Made by a program: the position numbers and the translations under genes. Below, one piece after another: positions 4,196 to 39,770 of a DNA stretch of 64,000 bases; position 1 is the first letter of the stretch, and every line of letters starts with the position of its first letter. The notes under the pieces were generated by a model, which had not been told where the DNA came from, made no database searches, and saw nothing but the letters and a program-made list of their open reading frames with translations. Source of the DNA: Mesotoga sp. BH458_6_3_2_1 (GTDB lineage Bacteria; Thermotogota; Thermotogae; Petrotogales; Kosmotogaceae); the NCBI RefSeq assembly GCF_003664995.1, contig NZ_JFHL01000007.1, positions 1 through 64,000 of the forward strand. The letters are read 5' to 3'.

Positions 4196-4412
4196 TTTCC
4201 CATATGATCCTGATAGCGAAACAAGTTCGTGACGGATCTTGACGCTTTCTACAACGACCTCGGACGACGTGGACCGTCGACGGTCAAGATTATCAATTCT
4301 CTTTTTCTCGCGAGCGGATCGAGAGTCTCATCGTGCTCTTTCTCGATACATTCTATCTTGTGCCCGCAGAGCGGTACTGAAGGTGACTGGCCTGCGTCAG
4401 CAGACTGGCAGT
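4196..4412. repeat. R5 repeat, partial copy C
   Basis: Covers the 3' two thirds of R5 with scattered substitutions relative to copies A and B. It is closest to copy D at 16751-16968, with which it also shares upstream sequence. Confidence 0.75.
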
Positions 4413-4690
4413 GAGGATCTTTCCCCGCAAAGCGGTACTGAAGGTAACTGGCCTGCGTTAGCAGACTGGCACATTTTGCCTCCTGGCGCGTAAGCGCAAG
4501 CATCACTTCCCGACGAAGTCGGCCTCACTTCCCCTGATGATCCTCCGGGCATCACTTCCTCGCGCTAGCGAGCCTCACTTCTACAAAGGTTCTTCGCCAG
4601 CCTTGCGTCCACTGATGCTCCTCAGTGCATTGCGACCGCCGATGCTTTTCGGCGCCTTGCGTCTTATGTTCTATAGCAGCATCACTTCTG
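4413..4690. repeat. R3 chain of short hairpins
   Basis: A run of small inverted repeats with different stems (for example CGACGAAGTCGG, TCGCGCTAGCGA, ACTGATGCTCCTCAGT, GCCGATGCTTTTCGGC) is separated by constant linkers TCACTTCC and TTGCG(T/A)CC. Some stems carry substitutions, as in CCTGATGATCCTCCGG. Confidence 0.7.
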
Positions 4691-11134: not shown

Positions 11135-11935
11135 CGAACGCCACTGGTTCCTCTTCTTTCACTTACCTAATATCGTCAGATAGTCCTCCTAGAGCAACAA
11201 AGGCCTGCTCAACGTTCTGAACATCGAGAAAGAGAATTGACGAGACGCTCGCTGCGCTCACGAGAGGACATCAGCGAAAATAGACACTGACGATTCTCCT
11301 AGCGTCCCATTTTTCGCGTACAACTAAGACCTTTTTCGGGCGAACAGCCGTTCGCCCCTACAAGAGAACTGCACAATCATCTGAAATTGTCATCGCGTAA
11401 AGCCTGCCCTGAAGCCTCAGTTTGTCATCCCGTGATGCTTTTGCACGGGATCTAACATTCAGAAACCGGTATACTCTTAGAAACAGAAACCCGTTGACCA
11501 CTGTAAGCGAAAATAGGGACTGACGAGATCTAAGCGTCTGTCTCGTTTTTCGCGTAAAACCGAGATCCTGGCCAGAACCGTGCCAGGATGACGCGAAGGT
11601 AGTAAGACAGTCATCCCGTGATGGTTCTGCACGGGATCTCATCTGACCGCGCAGTCGGAACTGGCCTCGCCGTAGGCGAGACTGGCCACCGAAGGTGACT
11701 GGCTTGCGTTAGCAGACTGGCTAATTTTTGCCCTGAATCCACTCAGATAGTCATCCCGTAGTGCTCCTATACGGGATCTCATCTCTTCAGTCTCGTCCTC
11801 TCTTTCTCTCTCCTCTTCTCGCTCTTTCGTGAAAGTGGAGTCCTTGAAGGCGCGCATGACTCTGGCCTCTTACATCATTTCCTACGGATTCCAAACGACC
11901 TCCTTATCACGGAGGCTTGACCCACATAATAGGGA
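11135..11935. repeat. repeat field (R1, R2, R3, R7)
   Basis: R1 lies at 11274-11318 and 11507-11554, R7 near 11338-11358, R2 at 11422-11455, 11610-11643 and 11751-11783, mirror R2 at 11562-11593, and an R3 fragment with linker ACTGGCC at 11652-11722. No gene is seen. Confidence 0.7.
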
Positions 11936-15424: not shown

Positions 15425-16750
15425 GGTTAGAGTTTAGAGGTAAGAAAACCAAGATCTTTTCGCTCTTCACGTCTGTTTTTCGCGCCATGAATCGAGATCC
15501 TGGCCACAAGCATGCCAGGATGACTTGATATGCTTTCATTCCGTATTAAATGTGCCTAAATCCACCCTCTTCTGTCAATCCGTAGAGCCTGCCCTGAAAT
15601 GCCTCAGTTTGTCATCCCGTGATGGGTCTGCACGGGATCTGGTCTTGAAAACATGGCACGGATAGCGAGCCTGGCCAGGCGGAGCCTGACTGGCCTGCGT
15701 CAGCAGACTGGCTCCCAAATGCTCCTACGGTCTGTCACATTTTTCGCGTAAAAGGCAGAAATTCCAACCAGGACCTTTTTCGGGCGAACGGCCGTTCGCC
15801 CCTACAAGAGAACTGCACAATCATCTGAAATTGTCATCCCGTAGCATTTCGAATGGAAGACTAACGAACTCCTGACATCTGTCCCCGTCCGTTCCGCCTC
15901 CGGCGGGAGACATTTGCAGGTTCACCGTAAACGATTCTCCCCACTCCGCCCGAGCGAGAGGAGCAAAAGATATGCTGCACAGGAAGAACGTGAAGAGCCG
16001 GTAGTCGATCCTCTTGATCAGTGATCCAATTAAGAATCATGCACTTCTTGTAGGGGCGAACGGCTATCCGCCCCTACGAGAGAACTGCACAATCATCTGG
16101 CATTGTCATCTCGTAGCATTTCGAATAGGGTACTGACGGGCTCCTGACGTCTGTCCACGTTCGTCCCCGTCCGTTCCGCCTCCGGCGGGAGACATTTGCA
16201 GGTTCACTGTAAACGATTCTCCAAACTCCGAGCGAGCGAGAGGAGCAAAAGATATGCTGCACAGGAAGAACGTGAAGAGCCGGTAGTCGATCCTCTTGAT
16301 CAGTGATCCAATTCAGAATCATGCACTTCTTGTAGGGGCGAACGGCTGTTCGCCCAAAAGCGTACTGATAAGGGAACCGAATAGGGGACTGACGCGCTCC
16401 TGACGTCTGTCCACGTTCGTCCCCATCCGTTTCGCCTCTGGCGGGAGACATTTGCAGGTTCACCGTAAACGATTCTCCAAACTCCGAGCGAGCGCAGCAA
16501 AAGATATGCTGCACAGGAATAACGTGAAGAGCCGGTAGTCGATCCTCTTGATCAGTGATCCAATTCAGAATCATGCACTTCTTGTAGGGGCGAACGGCTG
16601 TTCGCCCAAAAGCGTACTGATAAGGGAACCGAATAGGGGACTGACGAGCTCCTGACGTCTGTCCACGTCTATTCGAATAATAGAGTCCCTATTTTTAGAA
16701 GCGAGCAGGATGACCTAAAGTCAAAGACCCCTGCCTCGAAAATACGTTCT
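15425..16750. repeat. repeat field with R6 triplicated in tandem
   Basis: Mirror R2 lies at 15495-15526, R2 at 15609-15642, an R3 fragment at 15655-15715 and R7 near 15781. Three R6 units follow at about 15840-16046, 16103-16331 and 16370-16579 (spacing 282 and 256 bp), each ending in an R7 palindrome. They match 3706-3922. Minus-strand frames through R6 encode a repeated peptide but have no ribosome binding site, so I treat them as chance frames. Confidence 0.75.
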
Positions 16751-17200
16751 ATTTTCCCATATGATCCAGATAGCGAAACAAGTTCGTGACGGATCTTGAC
16801 GCTTTCTACAACGTCCTCGGACGACGTGGACCGTCGACGGTCAAGATTATCAATTCTCTTCTTCTCGCGAGCGGAGCGAGAGTCTCATCGTGCTTTTTCT
16901 CGATACATTCTCTCTTGTGCCCGCAAAGCGGTACTGAAGGTGACTGGCTTGCGTCAGCAGACTGGCTCTATTTTGCCTCCTGGTGCGTAAGCGCCAGCAT
17001 CACTTCCCGACGCAGTCGGCCTCACTTCCCCGGATGATCCTGCGGGCATCACTTCCTCTCGTCAGCGAGCCTCACTTCTACAAAGGTTCTTCGCCAGCGC
17101 TGCGTCCCGGGATGTACTTCACGGCCTTGCGTCTAGCAATTCTTGTCGGAGGACGGAGAACTGATGACGGTTGACCTGAGAGGCTCCTTGCGAAGCAGCC
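16751..17200. repeat. R5 copy D followed by an R3 hairpin chain
   Basis: R5 copy D covers 16751-16968; R3 units with linkers TCACTTCC and TGCGTC run to about 17145. Together with the upstream part this forms a duplicate of 4025-4660, with local insertions and stem changes. Confidence 0.7.
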
Positions 17201-18574: not shown

Positions 18575-19334
18575 AAAAGAACCTTCTGTTCTGACAATGT
18601 GCTGTTCCCTTAACCAAAATTCTCGACGCGCATCATCGGAACGAAAGATCCGCGCTAAGCTTAAGAATCACGAACCGCTGATCGTTTGGAAACAACCTTG
18701 TCCGTCAACGGTCCTCCGTCCTCCGAATTAGCCACACTCGTCTGAACTTGCTTCAGCATCTTGTTCTTTCTAACCCGATTTTCTTAACCCGTTCCTAGTA
18801 ACCCGCTCTTCTGTTTCACACCCGATCCTATTAACCCGATTCTCATAACCCGATTCTCATAACCCGGTTTTCTTAACCCGTTCTTAGTAACCCGATCCTA
18901 GAATCCACTCTTCTGCCCTCAAAGCGGAACTGGCCGCACGAAGTGCGACTGGCCACCGAAGGTGACTGGCCTGCGTTACCAGACTGGCTCCGAAAAGTTC
19001 TCTCTTCTCTCGTGAGCGCAGCGAACCTCTCCGCAATGCTCTTTCTCAAAGGTCTTTGTTTGCCCGCAAAGCGGTACTGAAGGTGACTGGCCTGTGTCAG
19101 CAGACTGGCTCATTTTGCCTCCTGGCGTGTAAGCGCCAGCATCACTTCCCGACGAAGTCGGCGTCACTTCCCCGGATGATCCTGCGGGCATCACTTCCTC
19201 GCGCCAGCGAGCCTCACTTCTACAAAGGTTCTTCGCCAGCCTTGCGTCCACTGATGCTCCTCAGTGCATTGCGTCCCGGCACGGTCTTTGCCGGCATTGC
19301 GTCTTTCAATTTATCTTCCTAATTCTTGTGTCCG
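18575..19334. repeat. repeat field with the longest R3 chain
   Basis: 18700-18730 is a GTCAACGGTCCTCCGTCCTCCG motif. 18760-18900 is a run of short AACCCGNTTCT-type repeats (CATAACCCGATTCT and variants). 18907-19305 is a long R3 chain with at least nine different hairpins and all three linker classes. No gene is seen. Confidence 0.7.
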
Positions 19335-20564: not shown

Positions 20565-21574
20565 AACTCGTAGTTACCCTGCCGGCTCTCTCTAAGATCC
20601 GCTATACGCTTAAAAACAAGGACCCGCTAAGCGCTGCAACGAAAATAGGGACTGACGATTCTTCTAGCATCTAGACCATTTTTCGCGAAGGACCGTGATC
20701 CTGACCAGGAACATTGTCAGGATGACAGGCAGGACTGTCATCCCGTAGGGTCTGCCCCAATGAGCCGGCCCATATATGCTTCTGTTTGGATTATGTTAAT
20801 GGTCCTATTCCGTCATCCCGTGATGCTTTTGCACGGGATCTATCACCTGAGATCCGCTTTTCGCTGCACGCTGAACGCTATAAGCGAAAATAGGGACTGA
20901 CGATTCTCCTTACGTCCCACTTTTCGAGAGAATCGAGATCCTGGCCTGAAGCATGACAGGATGACTTGATGTGCTTTCACTCCGTATTAAATGTCCGTAA
21001 ATCCACCCTCTTCTGTCAATCCGTAGAGCCTGCCCTGAAATGCCTCAGTTTGTCATCCCGTGATGGGTCTGCACGGGATCTGGTCTTGAAAACGCGGTAC
21101 GGATAGCGATCCTGGCCAGGCGGAGCCTGACTGGCTCCCAAATGCTCCTACGGTCTGTCACATTTTTCCCGTAAAAGGCAGAAATTCCAACCAGGACCTT
21201 TTTCGGGCGAACAGCCGTTCGCCCCTACAAAAGAATCGCATAATCGTCTGACATTATCATCCCGTAGAGGCTGACTTGCTTAACGCCTCTTCTGTCATCC
21301 CGTGACGCTTTTGCACGGGATCTGGTCTTACGAGAGCCTAGACCCGACTCTTATGCTATTTTCGCTCTTCTCAGAGAACGGAGAACCATTGCTAGCAAGT
21401 TCCTCATATTGAATGAAGATCCCCGTTACGATAATGAAAATACGGAGTCTGAAAAACGTTGTCGGAGGAGGGGGAACCGTTCAAGCCAGACTCGTTTTAG
21501 CTGAATGAAGAACTATCTTATCGGAATGTAAATAATGGAGTCCCTAAAGGTCAGTCCCGAAATGGAACTAAGCT
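20565..21574. repeat. repeat field (R1, R2, R3, R4, R7)
   Basis: R1 lies at 20641-20687 and 20884-20926, mirror R2 at 20694-20727 and 20936-20967, R2 at 20811-20843, 21056-21085 and 21293-21326, an R3 fragment at 21105-21140, R7 near 21207 and R4 at 21465-21560. No gene is seen. Confidence 0.7.
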
Positions 21575-24560: not shown

Positions 24561-25785
24561 GAAAGATAGCACCGCTGAAATAGAAACTCCGTCGCTTTTT
24601 CCAGAGTACATATTTCGTGAATCACTCATACCTTTCTGGGCTTAACTATACGTTACTATTGACGCTCTTTAGAACTACGGATGGCTCCAGCGAAAATAGG
24701 GACTGACCGGTTCCTATGGTCTGTCCCGTTTTTCGCGCCTCTTCGGTCATCCCGTAGAGCCTGTCCTGAATCGTTCCTGTTCAGGACCTTTGCACGGGAT
24801 CTCCCTCTTCAAAACCCGGTTCTCATAACCAGCTCCTAGTTACCCGAATTCCTAACCCGCTCTTCTAACCCGATCCTAGAATCCGCTCTTCCGCCCGGCG
24901 TAGCCGGAACTGGCCTCGCCGTAGGCGAGCCTGGCCAGGCGGAGCCTGACTGGCCTGCGTCAGCAGACATGCATTGAAGATCTTTCCCCGCGAAGCGGGC
25001 ATTGCGTCCTGGGATGATCTTTGCCAGCCCTGCGTCCGCCGATGATCTTCGGCGCATAGCGACTTCTCCTACGGTCTGCCACATTTTTCGCGTAAAATGC
25101 AGACATTTCAACCAAGGCCTTTTCGGGCGAACAGCCGTTCGCCCCTACAAAAGAATCGCATAATCGTCTGACATCGTCATCGCGTAGCATTTCCAATAGG
25201 GTACTGACGGGCTCCTGACGTCTGTCCCCGTCTATTCCAACTCTTGAGAAAACCCTCTGATCGCTGGGAAGACGACGTTGTCCGTCAGCGGTCCACCGTT
25301 CTCCGAAAAGAGCAGACGTCAATGAGGAAAAACTTGCTCTTTCTTCCAGAGGAAGAATCTGTTCTAGGTTAGTCAAAGTGAGATGAAAGAGATGCATGTG
25401 ACGGTGAAAATTTCATCGCCAATCCTATTGGTTTCAACTCTCTCCTTTCTCTCGTGAGCGCAGCGAACCTCTCCGCAATGCTCTTTCTCAAAGGTCTTTG
25501 TTTGCCCTCGAAGCGGAACTGGCCTTTGCGAAGCAAAGACTGGCCACCGAAGGTGACTGGCCTGCGTTAGCAGACTGGCATTGAAGATCTTTCCCCGCGA
25601 AGCGGGCATTGCCTCCTGGCGTGTAAGCGCCAGCATCACTTCCCGACGAAGTCGGCCTCACTTCCCCGGATGATCCTCCGGGCATCACTTCCTCGCGCCA
25701 GCGAGCCTCACTTCTGTTCTTAGCAGATTCCAGACCCGGTTCTTAGCAAGGATTGCTGTCTCCAATTTGCCGAGCCTACAAGTCC
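24561..25785. repeat. repeat field (R1, R2, R3, R7)
   Basis: R1 lies at 24690-24737, R2 at 24749-24803, AACCCGNTNCT-type short repeats at 24815-24885, R3 chains at 24890-25070 and 25505-25725, R7 near 25125 and a GTCAGCGGTCCACCGTTCTCCG motif near 25285. 25440-25500 (CTCGTGAGCGCAGCGAACCTCTC) recurs near 19010 and 27155. No gene is seen. Confidence 0.7.
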
Positions 25786-26429: not shown

Positions 26430-27268
26430 CATAGTACTGTCCTTACTCTTGAGTGTTCTGCTCTCAACCTTCTGCTTTGAGCATTCGCGTACCGTAATCC
26501 GCCAGCTATTAACGAACAACATCTATATCACATCGAAGAACTACATTACTCAAATAGAAATGATGGGTTCTCACTTTTTTGCTACTTGCACGTTTAGCTC
26601 TGACCCCAGAACCAGTTCTGATATCAGAACAATTTTAGTACGCGCTAAGAAACCCTCGAAACCTCCAATACCCCTATTGAGTGGTGCGTTGCGCGTAATA
26701 GCTTGTGCGTAGCAGCGAGGAGATGCATTCGAAGTCGATTGTGAATAGTTAAAAAGAGGGACTGACAAATCTCTCATGTCCCATTTTTCCCGTAAAAGGC
26801 AGAGATTCCAACCAGGACCTTTTCGGGCGAACGGCCGTTCGCCCCTACAAAAGAATTGCATAATCGTCTGACATTGTCATCGCGTAGCATTTCGAATAGG
26901 GGACTGACGGGCTCCTGACGTCTGTCCCCGTCTATTCCAACTCTTGAGAAAACCCTCTGATCGCTGTGAAGACAACGTTGTCCGTCGGCGGTCCACCGTT
27001 CTCCGAGAAGAGCAGCCGTCAATCAGGAAAACATTGCTCTTTGTTCCAGCGGAAGGATCTGTTCTTCGTTGGTCACAAGGTGAGATGAAAGAGATGCATG
27101 TGACGGGTAAATTCCATCGCCAATCTTACTGGTTTCTTCTCTCTCTCCTTTCTCTGGTGAGCGCAGCGAACCTCTCCGCAATGCTCTTTCTCAAAGGTCT
27201 TTGTTTGCCCTCGAAGCGGAACTGGCCTGGCCGAAGGCGATCCTGGCCAGGCGGAGCCTGACTGGCTC
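26430..27268. repeat. repeat field (R1, R3, R7)
   Basis: A degenerate R1 lies near 26750-26792, R7 near 26824, TTTCGAATAGGGGACTGAC...GTCTGTCCCC-type palindromes at 26890-26940, a GGTCCACCGTTCTCCG motif near 26990 and an R3 fragment at 27208-27268. 26940-27200 closely resembles 25240-25500. No gene is seen. Confidence 0.65.
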
Positions 27269-27270
27269 CC

Positions 27271-27321
27271 GGTGAAAATGGGGACTGACGATTCACCTCA
27301 CGTCTGTACCCGATTTTCACC
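27271..27321. repeat. REP palindrome (R1) downstream of the RAYT gene
   Basis: GGTGAAAATGGGGACTGAC...CGTCTGTACCCGATTTTCACC is an imperfect hairpin that begins 18 bp past the RAYT stop codon. It has the same orientation as the copy upstream of the gene. Confidence 0.7.
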
Positions 27322-27338: not shown

Positions 27339-28169
27339 CTACTCCTTCTTCGGTCTTCCCCTCGGCTTACTGCCAAGTGGAACCCCGAGCTCCTTCTCAA
27401 GATCGGCTACAAGTTCTTCGGCAAACAACGGCTTTCCAGAAAACGTGTTTCCCCTGATTCTACTGAGAAAACCATCTTCGTCGGGAAAACCCAGAAATTC
27501 TCTCCAGCCTTCGGGAGTCCAGTTAACATCGAGTTCCTCCAGCGAAGAAAGCTTTATAGTCCTAAAAGATGATGTTGAGATCTGAGAAGTTAAAGTATCT
27601 CCCTCAGACACCTTTTCCACTTCAGAAATCGAATGACTTTGGGTAATAACTCGTGAAATAGCGGACTCCTGACTTCTTTGCTCAGATTCATTGCCCTCAT
27701 CTTCACTGGGAATTCCTGGCTCCTCAATAAATCCCACATGTTCTCTCGCACTCGACCATTCATACTCCCAGGGAAACTGAACCATCTTTGCACGAACGGG
27801 ATTTCTCTCAACATACCTCAACGCTTCAGGAGCGTGATCATGATGCAGCGGACAGGAATAGAACCTTCCCTGCCAGAGATGCCCCGATCTCCGGTTCTTC
27901 TTATTGAAGTAGCTGGAGTACCTCATATTGGCGTACTTAAAAGTCATTGCTAGGGAATCTCTTCTTAGGGGAGCCGCTAGAAAATGAACATGGTTGGTCA
28001 TTAGGCAGTAAGCGTAGATCTTCATGTGATACTTTCCAGAATATTCGCTGACGAACTCGATGTACTTCTTCCGGTCGGCAGAATCCTCAAATATGTTCTG
28101 TCTGTAATTACCTCTCTGAGTAATGTGATGAACAACACCTTCGAATACAACCCGAGCAGACCTCGGCAT
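27339..28169 (-). CDS. REP-associated tyrosine transposase (RAYT, Y1_Tnp)
   Basis: A 276-residue single-strand transposase related to IS200/IS605 TnpA. It has GVVHHITQRGNYRQNIFEDSADRKKYIEFV, the HUH motif in MTNHVHFLAAP (His60, His62) and the nucleophile Tyr119 in ALRYVERNPVRA. GHLWQGRFYS is another RAYT signature. A C-terminal tail of about 120 residues is specific to this subfamily. Of the three consecutive ATGs the last (28169) is best spaced from AGAGGTG. The gene lies between two R1 palindromes, 18 and 30 bp away, as RAYT genes do with their cognate REPs. It probably spread the R1 elements found throughout the window. Confidence 0.88.
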   Translation of the reverse strand: MPRSARVVFEGVVHHITQRGNYRQNIFEDSADRKKYIEFVSEYSGKYHMKIYAYCLMTNHVHFLAAPLRRDSLAMTFKYANMRYSSYFNKKNRRSGHLWQGRFYSCPLHHDHAPEALRYVERNPVRAKMVQFPWEYEWSSAREHVGFIEEPGIPSEDEGNESEQRSQESAISRVITQSHSISEVEKVSEGDTLTSQISTSSFRTIKLSSLEELDVNWTPEGWREFLGFPDEDGFLSRIRGNTFSGKPLFAEELVADLEKELGVPLGSKPRGRPKKE

Positions 28170-28198
28170 CATCATCACCTCTAACCGCGGAAATGTTA

Positions 28199-28246
28199 GC
28201 AAAAATGGGGACTGACAAGTCTTCTAATGTCTGTACCCATTTTTGC
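28199..28246. repeat. REP palindrome (R1) upstream of the RAYT gene
   Basis: GCAAAAATGGGGACTGAC...GTCTGTACCCATTTTTGC is a near-perfect outer stem. It and the copy at 27271 share GGGGACTGAC and GTCTGTACCC, while most other copies read AGGGACTGAC and GTCTGTCCCA. Confidence 0.7.
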
Positions 28247-28249
28247 ACA

Positions 28250-28965
28250 CTTCAGATTATAGCAAAAGACATTTCGCTGATTTTCTAACATCGCTTATTC
28301 TTCTTCGCTCGAAATGAATAATCTTCACAGAGGTTCAAATCTCCGCTCGACTCATGGATCGAGATCGTTAATGCGGCGCACCGTCATCCCGTTGAGCCCG
28401 CCCCTGAATCAACTCAGTTAGTCATCCCGTAGTGCTCGTGTACGGGATCTTGCTCTTGTTCTTTCTGAAGAAAGACCGAGATCCTGGCCGGAGCTCTCCA
28501 GAATGACGTGAAGCGATGTCATCCCACAGTCCCCCGTTATGTCACCCCGTTGAGCCCGCCCCTGAATCAACTCACTTAGTCATCCCGTAGTGGTCCTGTA
28601 CGGGATCTCGATCTTGCGACACGCTGGACCCAACAATCTCAGATTCGGTTCTTCCGCTCTTCCCACTCTTCTCAGATAATGGAGAACCGTTGACGGCAGA
28701 CCTCTCTGACTGACGAATGTCTATGTTACCGAACTGTAAATAATGGAGTCTGTCCCGAAAAACCAATGAATTGCCGCGAAGCGGGCATTGCGACCTGGCA
28801 TGATCTTCGCCAGCCTTGGGTCCACTGATGCTCCTCAGTGCATTGCGTCCCGGCACGGCCTTTGCCGGCAATGCGTCCAATGTTCTATAAGGCATCACTT
28901 CTGCTCTTGAGAGACCCTAGACTCCAGACCCCAGGCCCAGCTCGTACCACGATGACGTTATCATT
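28250..28965. repeat. repeat field (R2, R3, R4)
   Basis: R2 lies at 28422-28455 and 28580-28612, mirror R2 at 28477-28510, R4 at 28672-28762 and an R3 chain at 28768-28910. No gene is seen. Confidence 0.7.
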
Positions 28966-33189: not shown

Positions 33190-34015
33190 ATCCCTCCAAT
33201 TCAGAAAAAGCTCAAGAAAATTATATCATCGCATTACTTTGTCATATTGTAGCAAATGGAGACCTTACTTATTATAGGCTATCCAATTTGTGTCTAGCTC
33301 GGTGGCGGATTCATTCTCCTAAGAGCATTCAAGAACGGCCATCTTGCTCCAACATCCCTCTTATCTGCAAAGCCTATGCAATTTCCTACCTGTCCACAAG
33401 AACACCTTTGCTAATCGAACCGTGATACTTATATTCTGCAGTAAAAAGAATACAGCATCCAAGTGTTCACTCTTGGATGCTTCATCCTCACCACTTCATT
33501 TCTTCTTATTCTACTATTCCTCATTTGCTTGTCCAATTCCCCTCGGGGTGAAAAAGGCAAAGAGATACGTCTTCTTGTATCACTTTTGTCTTCATCTCTC
33601 TTTGCATTGCTCTCCTGAATGAAGAACTATATTAGGCACATGTAAACAAACGAGTCCCGAACAGACACGTCTCGCCCTCCTTGAGTAAGAAAGAAGAACA
33701 AGGATATAAAGTGTCGAAGAATCGTTTTCCCCAGCGTACAGCCTTCAGCGTTTATAATCCAAGCGGTTCTTTCCCCGCGAAGCGGGCATTGCGTCCTGGC
33801 ATGTTCTTCGCCAGCCTTGCGTCCACTGATGCACCTCAGTGCATTGCGACCGCCGATGCTTTTCGGCGCCTTGCGTCTTGCAACTTCTAGTCGGAGGACG
33901 GAGAACCGTTGACGGCAGACCTGCTCTAAATGAATGAAGAACTACGTTACTGGAATGCAAATAATGGAGTCTGTCCCGAAAATTACGAAGAAGCTAAATA
34001 CGAAGAAGCTTATAA
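33190..34015. repeat. non-coding stretch with R3 and R4
   Basis: 33190-33600 shows nothing recognisable. 33772-33885 is an R3 chain (TTGCGTCC and TTGCGACC linkers; stems ACTGA/TCAGT, GCCGA/CGGC) and 33890-33982 is an R4 copy ending GTCTGTCCCGAAAA. Confidence 0.6.
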
Positions 34016-37799: not shown

Positions 37800-39770
37800 T
37801 TACCTCCCATGGGATACCCACAAAGACAATCGATACTCCATTCATACGAAAAAAATCGATTCGCTTAGTCGAGCAGATTCCCCAGAAGAAAAAAGAAAGA
37901 AAACCAACAACTGAATTCTACCATTTGAACTCTTGCAAACAACAATCGTCGCGGAAATTACTGTGATGTGGCAAATGGAGGAAATCTTAAAGGTCCATAC
38001 GGGATTTTTCTCTTCACAGAGAACCGTTGACGGCAGACCTGCTATGACTAACGAAAGTCTACGTTACCAGAATGAAAATAATCGAGTCTGTACCCAAAGG
38101 TCCGTTATCTTCTTTTCTCTTTGCATTGCCATCCTGAAAGAAAAACGAGGTTACGGCCATGTAAATAATGGAGTCTGTCCCGAAAAACTTCACGATAATT
38201 TGTCATGCTGAACTTGTTTCAGCATCCCGTTCTAAGAACCGCTGCACGCTAAAGAACGTGAACCCGCTGAACGCTGGGAAGAGCCTAGAAAGAGCATTAA
38301 CGAGACTTTGATTCGCTCACGAGAAAGCGAGAGCGAAAATAGGGACTGACGAGCTCCTAGCGTCTGTCCCATTTTTCGCGTTACAAAGCGAGATCCTGGC
38401 CAGAAGCGAGCCAGGATGACCCGAAACGGTATCATCCAATAATCGACCTTACCGTCATCCCGTAGTGCTCCTGTACGGGATCTGGTCTTGAAAACACGGC
38501 AAAAACCGAGATCCTGACCAGGAGCATTGTCAGGATGACGTTTAGGGTGCCATCTCGTTGAGCTTGCCCTGATTAGCCTGCCCTGAAGTGCTCCTGTTCA
38601 GGGTTCCTGTTCAGGACCTTTGCACGGGATCTCGTTCTTCTCATACGTCTCGCCCTCTCTCCTCTTCTCGTAGTTCTTAACCAAAAACCTGGACACCAAG
38701 TAACGGAACGAAGACCCGCTGGCACTCTCTCACGGATCTAGCTCTCTTCTCGGAGGACGGAGAACCGCTACGGCAAATCTGTTCTAATTGAGCGAATAAC
38801 AATATTACGAGAATGTAAATAATAGAGTCTGTCCCGAAAAACTCTACCTGTTCTAATTGAACGAAGAATTATATTGCAATAATGTAAATAATGGAGTCTG
38901 TCCCCAAAGATCCAGTTTCCTAACGTCTGTTCCATTCCTCACTCCATAGATCGAGTTCCTGGCCAGAAGCGCGCCAGATGACGTGAAGCGATGTCATCCC
39001 ACAGTCCCCCATACTGTCATCCCGTAGAGCCCGCCCCTGAATCCACTCACTTAGTCATCCCGTGATGCAACTGCACGGGATCTGGTCTTGAAAACACGGC
39101 ACGGATAGAGATCCTTGCCAGAAGCGCGAGGATGACGTGAAGCGATGTCATCCCACAGTCCCCGTACTGTCATCCCGTAGAGCCTGCAATGATAAGCGCC
39201 TCCTCTGTCATCCCGCAGTGTTCCTGTGCTGGATCTCGATCTTGCGAGACGCTGGACCCAACAATCTCAGATTTGGTTCTTCCGCTCTTCTCAAATAATG
39301 GAGAACCGTTGACGGCAGACCTCTCTGACTGACGAATGTCTATGTTACCGAAATGTAAATAATGGAGTCTGTCCCGAAAAACCTGCTCTGACTAACGAAA
39401 GGGTCACGGGATCTCATTCTTCTCGTCCTTATCGCCCTCTCTCTTTTCTCTCCGGTTCATTAAGTAAGAAGAAAGATGCTAGGCGTGAAGTGTCGAAGAA
39501 TCGTTTTCCCCAGCGTACAGCCTTCAGCGTTTGTTGTCCAAGCGGCTCTTTCCCCGCGAAGCGGGCATTGCGACCTGGCATGATCTTTGCCAGCCCTGCG
39601 TCCCGGGATGAACTTCCCGGCCCTGCGTCCGCCGATGATTTTCGGCGCCTTGCGTCTTGCAACTTCTAGTCGGAGGACGGAGAACCGGTGACTGCTGACG
39701 GCAAATCTGTTCGAAATGAATCAAGAACTATATTACAGGAATGTAAATAATGGAGTCTGTCCCGAAAAAT
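37800..39770. repeat. long repeat field rich in R4
   Basis: R4 copies or parts lie at 38018-38098, 38150-38188, 38753-38842, 38848-38905, 39297-39382 and 39663-39770. R1 lies at 38333-38380. R2 lies at 38454-38485, 38555-38630, 39053-39086 and 39207-39239, with mirror R2 at 38391-38421, 38510-38540, 38950-38980 and 39108-39137. An R3 chain lies at 39545-39660. No gene is seen in almost 2 kb. Confidence 0.7.

Follow-up and report, generated by a model that had tools for sequence, protein, structure and literature searches.

Several described systems build repeated hairpins into genomes. REP, BIME and REPIN elements are short, palindromic, non-coding repeats that reach high copy number and assemble into mosaics, and the REP hairpin carries a fixed unpaired motif beside it (PMC3733652, PMC3116915). 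Each REP family repeats a single stem, of 8-9 bp in the CGTC REPs, and is mostly arranged as inverted dimers, head-to-tail dimers being rare (PMC3733652, PMC3116915). The CGTC REPs as a class have no dedicated transposase, and M. prima has known CGTC-3 REPs (PMC3733652). Mitochondrial hairpin elements or GC clusters are tandem intergenic hairpins with complementary substitutions between families and are proposed recombination sites; a given genome has one or two types of stem, and neither constant linkers nor a fixed order are reported for them (PMC2800124). The vRNAP promoters of phage N4 are short-stemmed hairpins with a C-G closing pair and G and A at the loop ends, in which one strand is favoured and a dedicated polymerase reads single sites of the phage genome (PMC4496689). 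Extrusion of these short hairpins at physiological supercoiling, which occurs in vivo, needs the C-G closing pair together with the G and A of the loop, while the non-conserved bases are free provided that the hairpin is kept (PMC4496689). CRISPR arrays alternate short constant units with variable ones, head to tail.

We analyzed chains of mini-hairpins in Mesotoga sp. BH458_6_3_2_1 that resemble each of these systems in part. The window (the first 64,000 nucleotides of contig NZ_JFHL01000007.1) belongs to contig C7 of a genome of 3.23 Mb with 45% G+C. An initial annotation had reported strings of small inverted repeats at about a dozen places. We found them at all eight of the main coordinates, and chain pieces were also present at the four places listed as fragments (11652, 15655, 21105 and 27208). 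The chains consist of head-to-tail hairpins of 11-19 nt each, in eight regions of the window and in 154 clusters in DNA of four Mesotoga-group genomes, whose chain loci were the DNA retrieved around pattern matches. They are intergenic, clustered and present in high copy number, with neighbouring genes taken from simple ORF calls.

Three linkers join the hairpins: ACTGGC(C) in class A, TCACTTC(C) in class B and TTGCG[TA]C(C) in class C. With the preceding bases, B reads C[A/C]TCACTTC and C reads C[A/C]TTGCG[T/A]C. The three classes agree with the initial annotation, but the linker length of 8-11 nt given there does not: the linker proper is 6-7 nt, and the adjoining C-G foot pair is constant and belongs to the hairpin. 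Cassettes come in two kinds, both of which have C as their first and G as their last base, followed by the linker. In short-loop cassettes a loop of 3-4 nt is enclosed by C plus 3-6 paired bases. Long-loop cassettes, which make up about half of classes B and C, are built of six pairs with a loop that approximates TGNTCT. Composite chains unite the classes, often as A-C-B or A-B-C, and reach a maximum of 17 hairpins. The stems are variable, as had been claimed, but they do not differ unit by unit; they form a limited recurrent set of 44 perfect types in the four genomes and about 25 repeated families, and the stem CGAC occurs with all three linkers.

The best composite chain (18907-19305, + strand, as for all chains of the window) runs from class A through a second A block and a B block into class C. 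Its class A cassettes include CGCAC-GAA-GTGCG (18935-18947; linkers ACTGGC at 18929 and 18948), whose C-GAA-G loop fits the loop rule described below, CACC-GAA-GGTG (18954-18964) and CTGC-GTTA-CCAG (18971-18982), which is decayed and departs from the family stem CTGC/GCAG by one mismatch. The class B block starts with CTGGCG-TGTAAG-CGCCAG (19122-19139) and contains CCGAC-GAA-GTCGG (19149-19161; linkers TCACTTC at 19142 and 19164), the long-loop cassette CCCGGA-TGATCC-TGCGGG (19171-19188), with one C to G mismatch against its family stem, and CTCGC-GCCA-GCGAG (19198-19211; linkers at 19191 and 19214). The class C long-loop cassettes CACTGA-TGCTCC-TCAGTG (19249-19266; linkers TTGCGTC at 19242 and 19269) and CCGGCA-CGGTCTT-TGCCGG (19276-19294) follow, and the final linker lies at 19297. 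Directly upstream of this chain, at 18767-18896, is a degenerate array of a 14-nt TAACCCG-type repeat; arrays of this type likewise precede the chains at loci L283 and L232.

The other composite chains are A-A-B-C at 4361-4690, A-B at 16918-17145 (partly decayed), A-C at 24884-25075 and A-B at 25493-25725. Class C forms the chains at 28762-28910, which has a class B end, 33764-33885 and 39545-39660. Short class A chains lie at 11635-11740, 15645-15715 and 27196-27266, the last ending at a RAYT-like element. The window also holds tandem repeats of 252-282 bp at 15782-16668, each with a GGGCGAACGGC...GCCCC palindrome, and many defence or toxin-antitoxin-like genes between 11990 and 26423 (AAA_14/DUF4143, AbiEii, RloB with an AAA_21 partner, DUF5615).

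Both linkers and hairpins exceeded chance. The three linker strings occurred at four to six times their frequency in dinucleotide shuffles (TCACTTCC, 15 in the window against 2.9; TTGCGTCC, 8 against 1.3; ACTGGCC, 18 against 4.1), and no shuffle reached the observed count of any of them. Perfect hairpins, defined by an arm of at least 5 and a loop of 3-8 and compared with 500 shuffles, numbered 7 in 18907-19305 against 2.15 in shuffled sequence, and a single shuffle of the 500 was as high. The excess was clear in five of the eight regions and marginal at 4413-4690 (22 of 500 shuffles); at 16969-17145 and 28768-28910 it was not significant when each region was taken singly.

Arm agreement was assessed on units picked by linkers and length alone. 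Watson-Crick pairing amounted to 91.2%, against 66.4% with the right arms re-dealt and a maximum of 71.5% in 1000 shuffles. A second, independent tool gave 94.6% standard pairs for 80 distinct 18-nt units, against 71.2% after shuffling. For the same units covariation was 0.549 against 0.125, and two-sided changed cells numbered 91 against 24. None of 500 shuffles matched the pairing, the two-sided changes or the covariation, and when the partner was slid along the unit pairing reached 57% at most. The proposal that the arms mostly agree and that stem changes are compensated therefore holds above chance, though at the level of families: the excess arises because a limited number of stem families differ from each other. 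CCCGGA, CGCCGA, CACTGA, CTGGGA and other families each have many perfect copies, and departures inside one family are mostly one-sided decay, so that the compensation sits between families.

This distribution of changes bears on a mechanism that had been suggested for the chains, in which one arm serves as the template for the other by template switching at quasipalindromes, and stems would drift yet stay perfect without selection. Homogenization of arms is a known process (PMC8604942), as are the creation and repair of stems by template switching (PMC8794818), and families do differ by several pairs at once, including exchanges of G-C for C-G without a G-U intermediate. Against such copying, one-sided changes dominate and persist within families, with one mismatch in 68 of the 267 distinct units, and compensated variants inside a family, such as CCCAGA, are rare. 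Moreover, stem families are common to different species, and the loop sets listed give no hint of the inverted loops that spacer inversion should produce. We regard this as an unlikely account of the chains, and copying of one arm into the other is not seen at present; arm copying in the past could have created the stem families.

The strong covariation between arms would also suit a structured RNA under selection, made from transcribed chains, with a protein or an RNase recognizing the hairpins. Selection on an RNA fold is expected to favour G·U mismatches. Among the single-mismatch units, however, 13 had G·T and 14 had A·C. Chain orientation relative to the two flanking genes showed no bias (20/19/17/17, with simple ORF gene calls). 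One-sided decay, A·C mismatches as common as G·T and gene-independent orientation together argue against selection on RNA structure, and equally against rapid copying from arm to arm. In addition, the whole best chain folded no better as RNA than its shuffles (z +0.43), an Rfam scan of the window gave no match, the tetraloops are GNYA instead of GNRA, and orthologous sites can carry different chains. The structure-selected RNA put forward in the initial annotation is therefore very improbable.

Locally, orientation is constant. Units inside each chain share one orientation, and neighbouring chains of a region are co-oriented: all are + in the window, and all are - in C7 at 77-91 kb, in C8 and in C12. 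In the genome of a second species (G001), 10 clusters were on the + and 23 on the - strand before 1.35 Mb, as against 23 and 11 after it (p = 0.003, with clusters that are not independent of each other); with a terminus placed from patchy skew, these counts weakly suggest a moderate replication-strand bias.

We then considered the loops. Among 331 short-loop units, 231 loops were GNA, 55 GNYA, 15 GNRA and 30 of other sequence, so that 301 (91%) followed GNA or GNNA, and almost all of these had C-G as the closing pair; 19 of the 22 distinct short-loop stems had the C-G closing pair. Single changes from the commonest triloop numbered 14 at the middle base and 7 at the outer positions (p = 0.0018, tested against one third). 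Tetraloop changes showed a like trend that was not significant (8 against 3, p = 0.11). GNA and GNNA loops with G-C pairs form extraordinarily stable DNA mini-hairpins (PMC4686876). The hairpins of phage N4 promoters share the C-G closing pair, the G and A at the loop ends, the short stem with other bases largely free if paired and the favouring of one strand (PMC4496689); they are single sites, whereas the Mesotoga hairpins form chromosomal arrays. We consider the loop rule the best clue to what the short-loop cassettes conserve. Long-loop cassettes do not fit the GNA rule and are not covered by it, and part of the loop conservation may reflect shared descent. Selection for a DNA structure, the other form of the structural proposal, is compatible with these loops and with the preference of triloop changes for the middle base, which is free. 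The whole best chain folded no better than shuffles as DNA of either strand (z -0.76 and -1.0), nor did it as RNA, and hence we claim no global fold.

How are the cassettes arranged from site to site? Adjacent cassettes were in canonical order in 104 of 107 cases in class A (97%), 123 of 151 in class B (82%) and 180 of 192 in class C (94%), compared with 62-68% after shuffling within runs. At the same time, the 154 clusters contained 138 distinct unit strings, which differ mainly by cassettes that are missing or swapped. The claim that units occur in different orders from site to site needs correction, since order is mostly canonical. One slot can hold different complete stems, for example TCGCC, TTTGC or GCAC before an identical neighbour. 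Tandem copies at L210 differ by exactly one 27-nt cassette, located between TTGCGTCC repeats. When copies of one B chain were aligned, the chain was common and the flanks were different, some copies having only one flank in common.

Comparison of this genome (G000) with the second species G001 gave both outcomes. The orthologous site pairs L192/L283, L199/L231 and L208/L235 were identical or near-identical in unit content, L192/L283 with 99.2% identity. The orthologous sites L200 and L232 carried different chains, one truncated directly after a hairpin and the other replaced up to a shared hairpin. The 99.2% identity of L192 and L283 extends over 3.5 kb, other loci of the two species being 75-98% identical; this could reflect either recent transfer or patchy divergence. 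The patterns of indels, breakpoints and flanks look like traces of events at the hairpins and linkers, either recombination or template switching. We sought a clean empty site for a whole chain and found neither such a site nor a simple insertion with target duplication, the intergenic regions being mosaics of several repeat kinds.

These comparisons also bear on plain decay, in which copies of a single ancestral chain for each linker class were dispersed and lost units at random. The canonical order within each linker class and the uncompensated decay inside families are what such a history would leave. It is at odds with slots that hold unrelated complete stems, with a stem that is found with more than one linker, with the count of 138 distinct strings among 154 clusters and with orthologous sites whose chains differ. 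Because whole stems were swapped at slots and chains were recombined, simple decay of a single ancestral chain is too simple, and we consider it unlikely, with a slightly smaller chance than copying between arms.

The chains were largely confined to the genus. A paired TTGCG linker pattern had 96 matches in this genome. Of nine other members of the genus, six had 1-109 matches and three (G003, G007 and G008) had none. One match was found in a genome of the same family, on a small contig that is possibly mis-binned, and 44 genomes from beyond the family had none; a control with the pattern reversed had no match in any genome. The same chains are present in contigs of Mesotoga WOFB36. Pattern-scan matches in genome contigs outside Mesotoga proved to be ordinary tandem or coding repeats, apart from the mis-binned-looking L054. 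This locus (JALHHH010000130.1, from a Bacteroidales MAG) bears chains and has 93-98% identity to the genome studied here. Taken with L020 (contig C104 of the same-family genome G010), which also bears chains, the two are 91-98% identical to this genome and are likely mis-binned Mesotoga DNA. Literature searches restricted to open-access sources returned no account of such chains in Mesotoga, and absence there is not proof. Our best reading is that the chains are a Mesotoga-specific, non-coding, REP/BIME-like system borne by several Mesotoga species.

The likeness to REP raises the question of mobility. The cassettes might be non-autonomous single-stranded DNA mobile elements of the REP type, whose linker plus hairpin shape is read by an IS200/RAYT-like (Y1, HUH) transposase, which would leave the stems free to vary. 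The hairpin with its fixed unpaired flank, the head-to-tail copies and their locally constant orientation suit this possibility. The class C linker TTGCGTC even has CGTC next to the foot, which the class A and B linkers lack, and a RAYT-like Y1 transposase gene (27339-28202, - strand) adjoins a chain end. This gene, however, is framed by inverted ends of its own, GGTACAGAC...GTCAGTCCCC, at about 27270-27320 and 28209-28255, and no symmetric pair of chain hairpins frames it. Similar ends lie beside Y1 genes at L253 and L255. The chain-rich genomes G001 (99% complete), G002 and G009 lack Y1_Tnp, as does G006 with its single chain match; the chain-less G007 and G008 have it. This distribution led us to reject the link to an IS200/RAYT transposase that we had considered, and together with the gene's own ends it kept us from classing the chains as RAYT-driven REPs. 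We found no mobilizing enzyme for the chains, and IS200/RAYT transposases do not track them. Transposase-driven mobility of the REP type is rather unlikely overall, though a little less so than arm copying, and it is possible that the chains act like REP.

In structure the chains depart from classical REP and BIME elements, as the initial annotation had noted for stem and linker: they use about 25 stems rather than one and three linkers, their units are not inverted dimers but run strictly head to tail in canonical order, and their loops are GNA or GNNA. Their hairpins also lack the AT foot pairs that are typical of CGTC REPs (PMC3733652). A separate hairpin repeat, CGTCATCCCG...CGGGATCT, is present at 11600-11640, 15610-15640, 21050-21085 and other places in the window; judged by the published description, it appears to be the CGTC-3 REP of M. 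prima (PMC3733652). The resemblance to CRISPR is limited to the layout: in the chains the variable position is taken by a palindrome that belongs to a limited, shared repertoire, the constant unit measures only 6-8 nt and copies are dispersed over many sites per genome, and we claim no kinship.

Our preferred reading, held tentatively and at slightly less than even probability, is a Mesotoga-specific, non-coding, REP/BIME-like mosaic of DNA mini-hairpin cassettes that is reshuffled by recombination or template switching. The working form would be single-stranded or supercoil-extruded DNA of one strand. Hairpins together with the direct repeats of the linkers would promote slippage, template switching and recombination, and through these events cassettes would be lost or exchanged and chains united into mosaics. 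The chains may have spread for the most part as passengers when repeat-rich intergenic regions were duplicated or recombined with each other. The stem families are probably older; either the ability to form hairpins was once required, or template switching generated it.

A more specific and unlikely proposal is that the hundreds of ordered, exchangeable cassettes serve a candidate host or mobile-element protein that reads extruded single-strand hairpins by shape, as a chromosomal counterpart of N4-type sites. If this were true, the stem bases would be free, the loop, foot pair and linker fixed, and the assembly combinatorial. If the reshuffled mosaic is right, palindromic repeats need not copy one stem, since the linker, foot pair and loop would be kept while whole stems are exchanged, and strong covariation in stems would be no proof, by itself, of an RNA gene. 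Mesotoga would then offer a natural set, within one genome, of short hairpins that meet the published extrusion rule, and the formation and relevance of short cruciforms in bacterial chromosomes would become directly testable.
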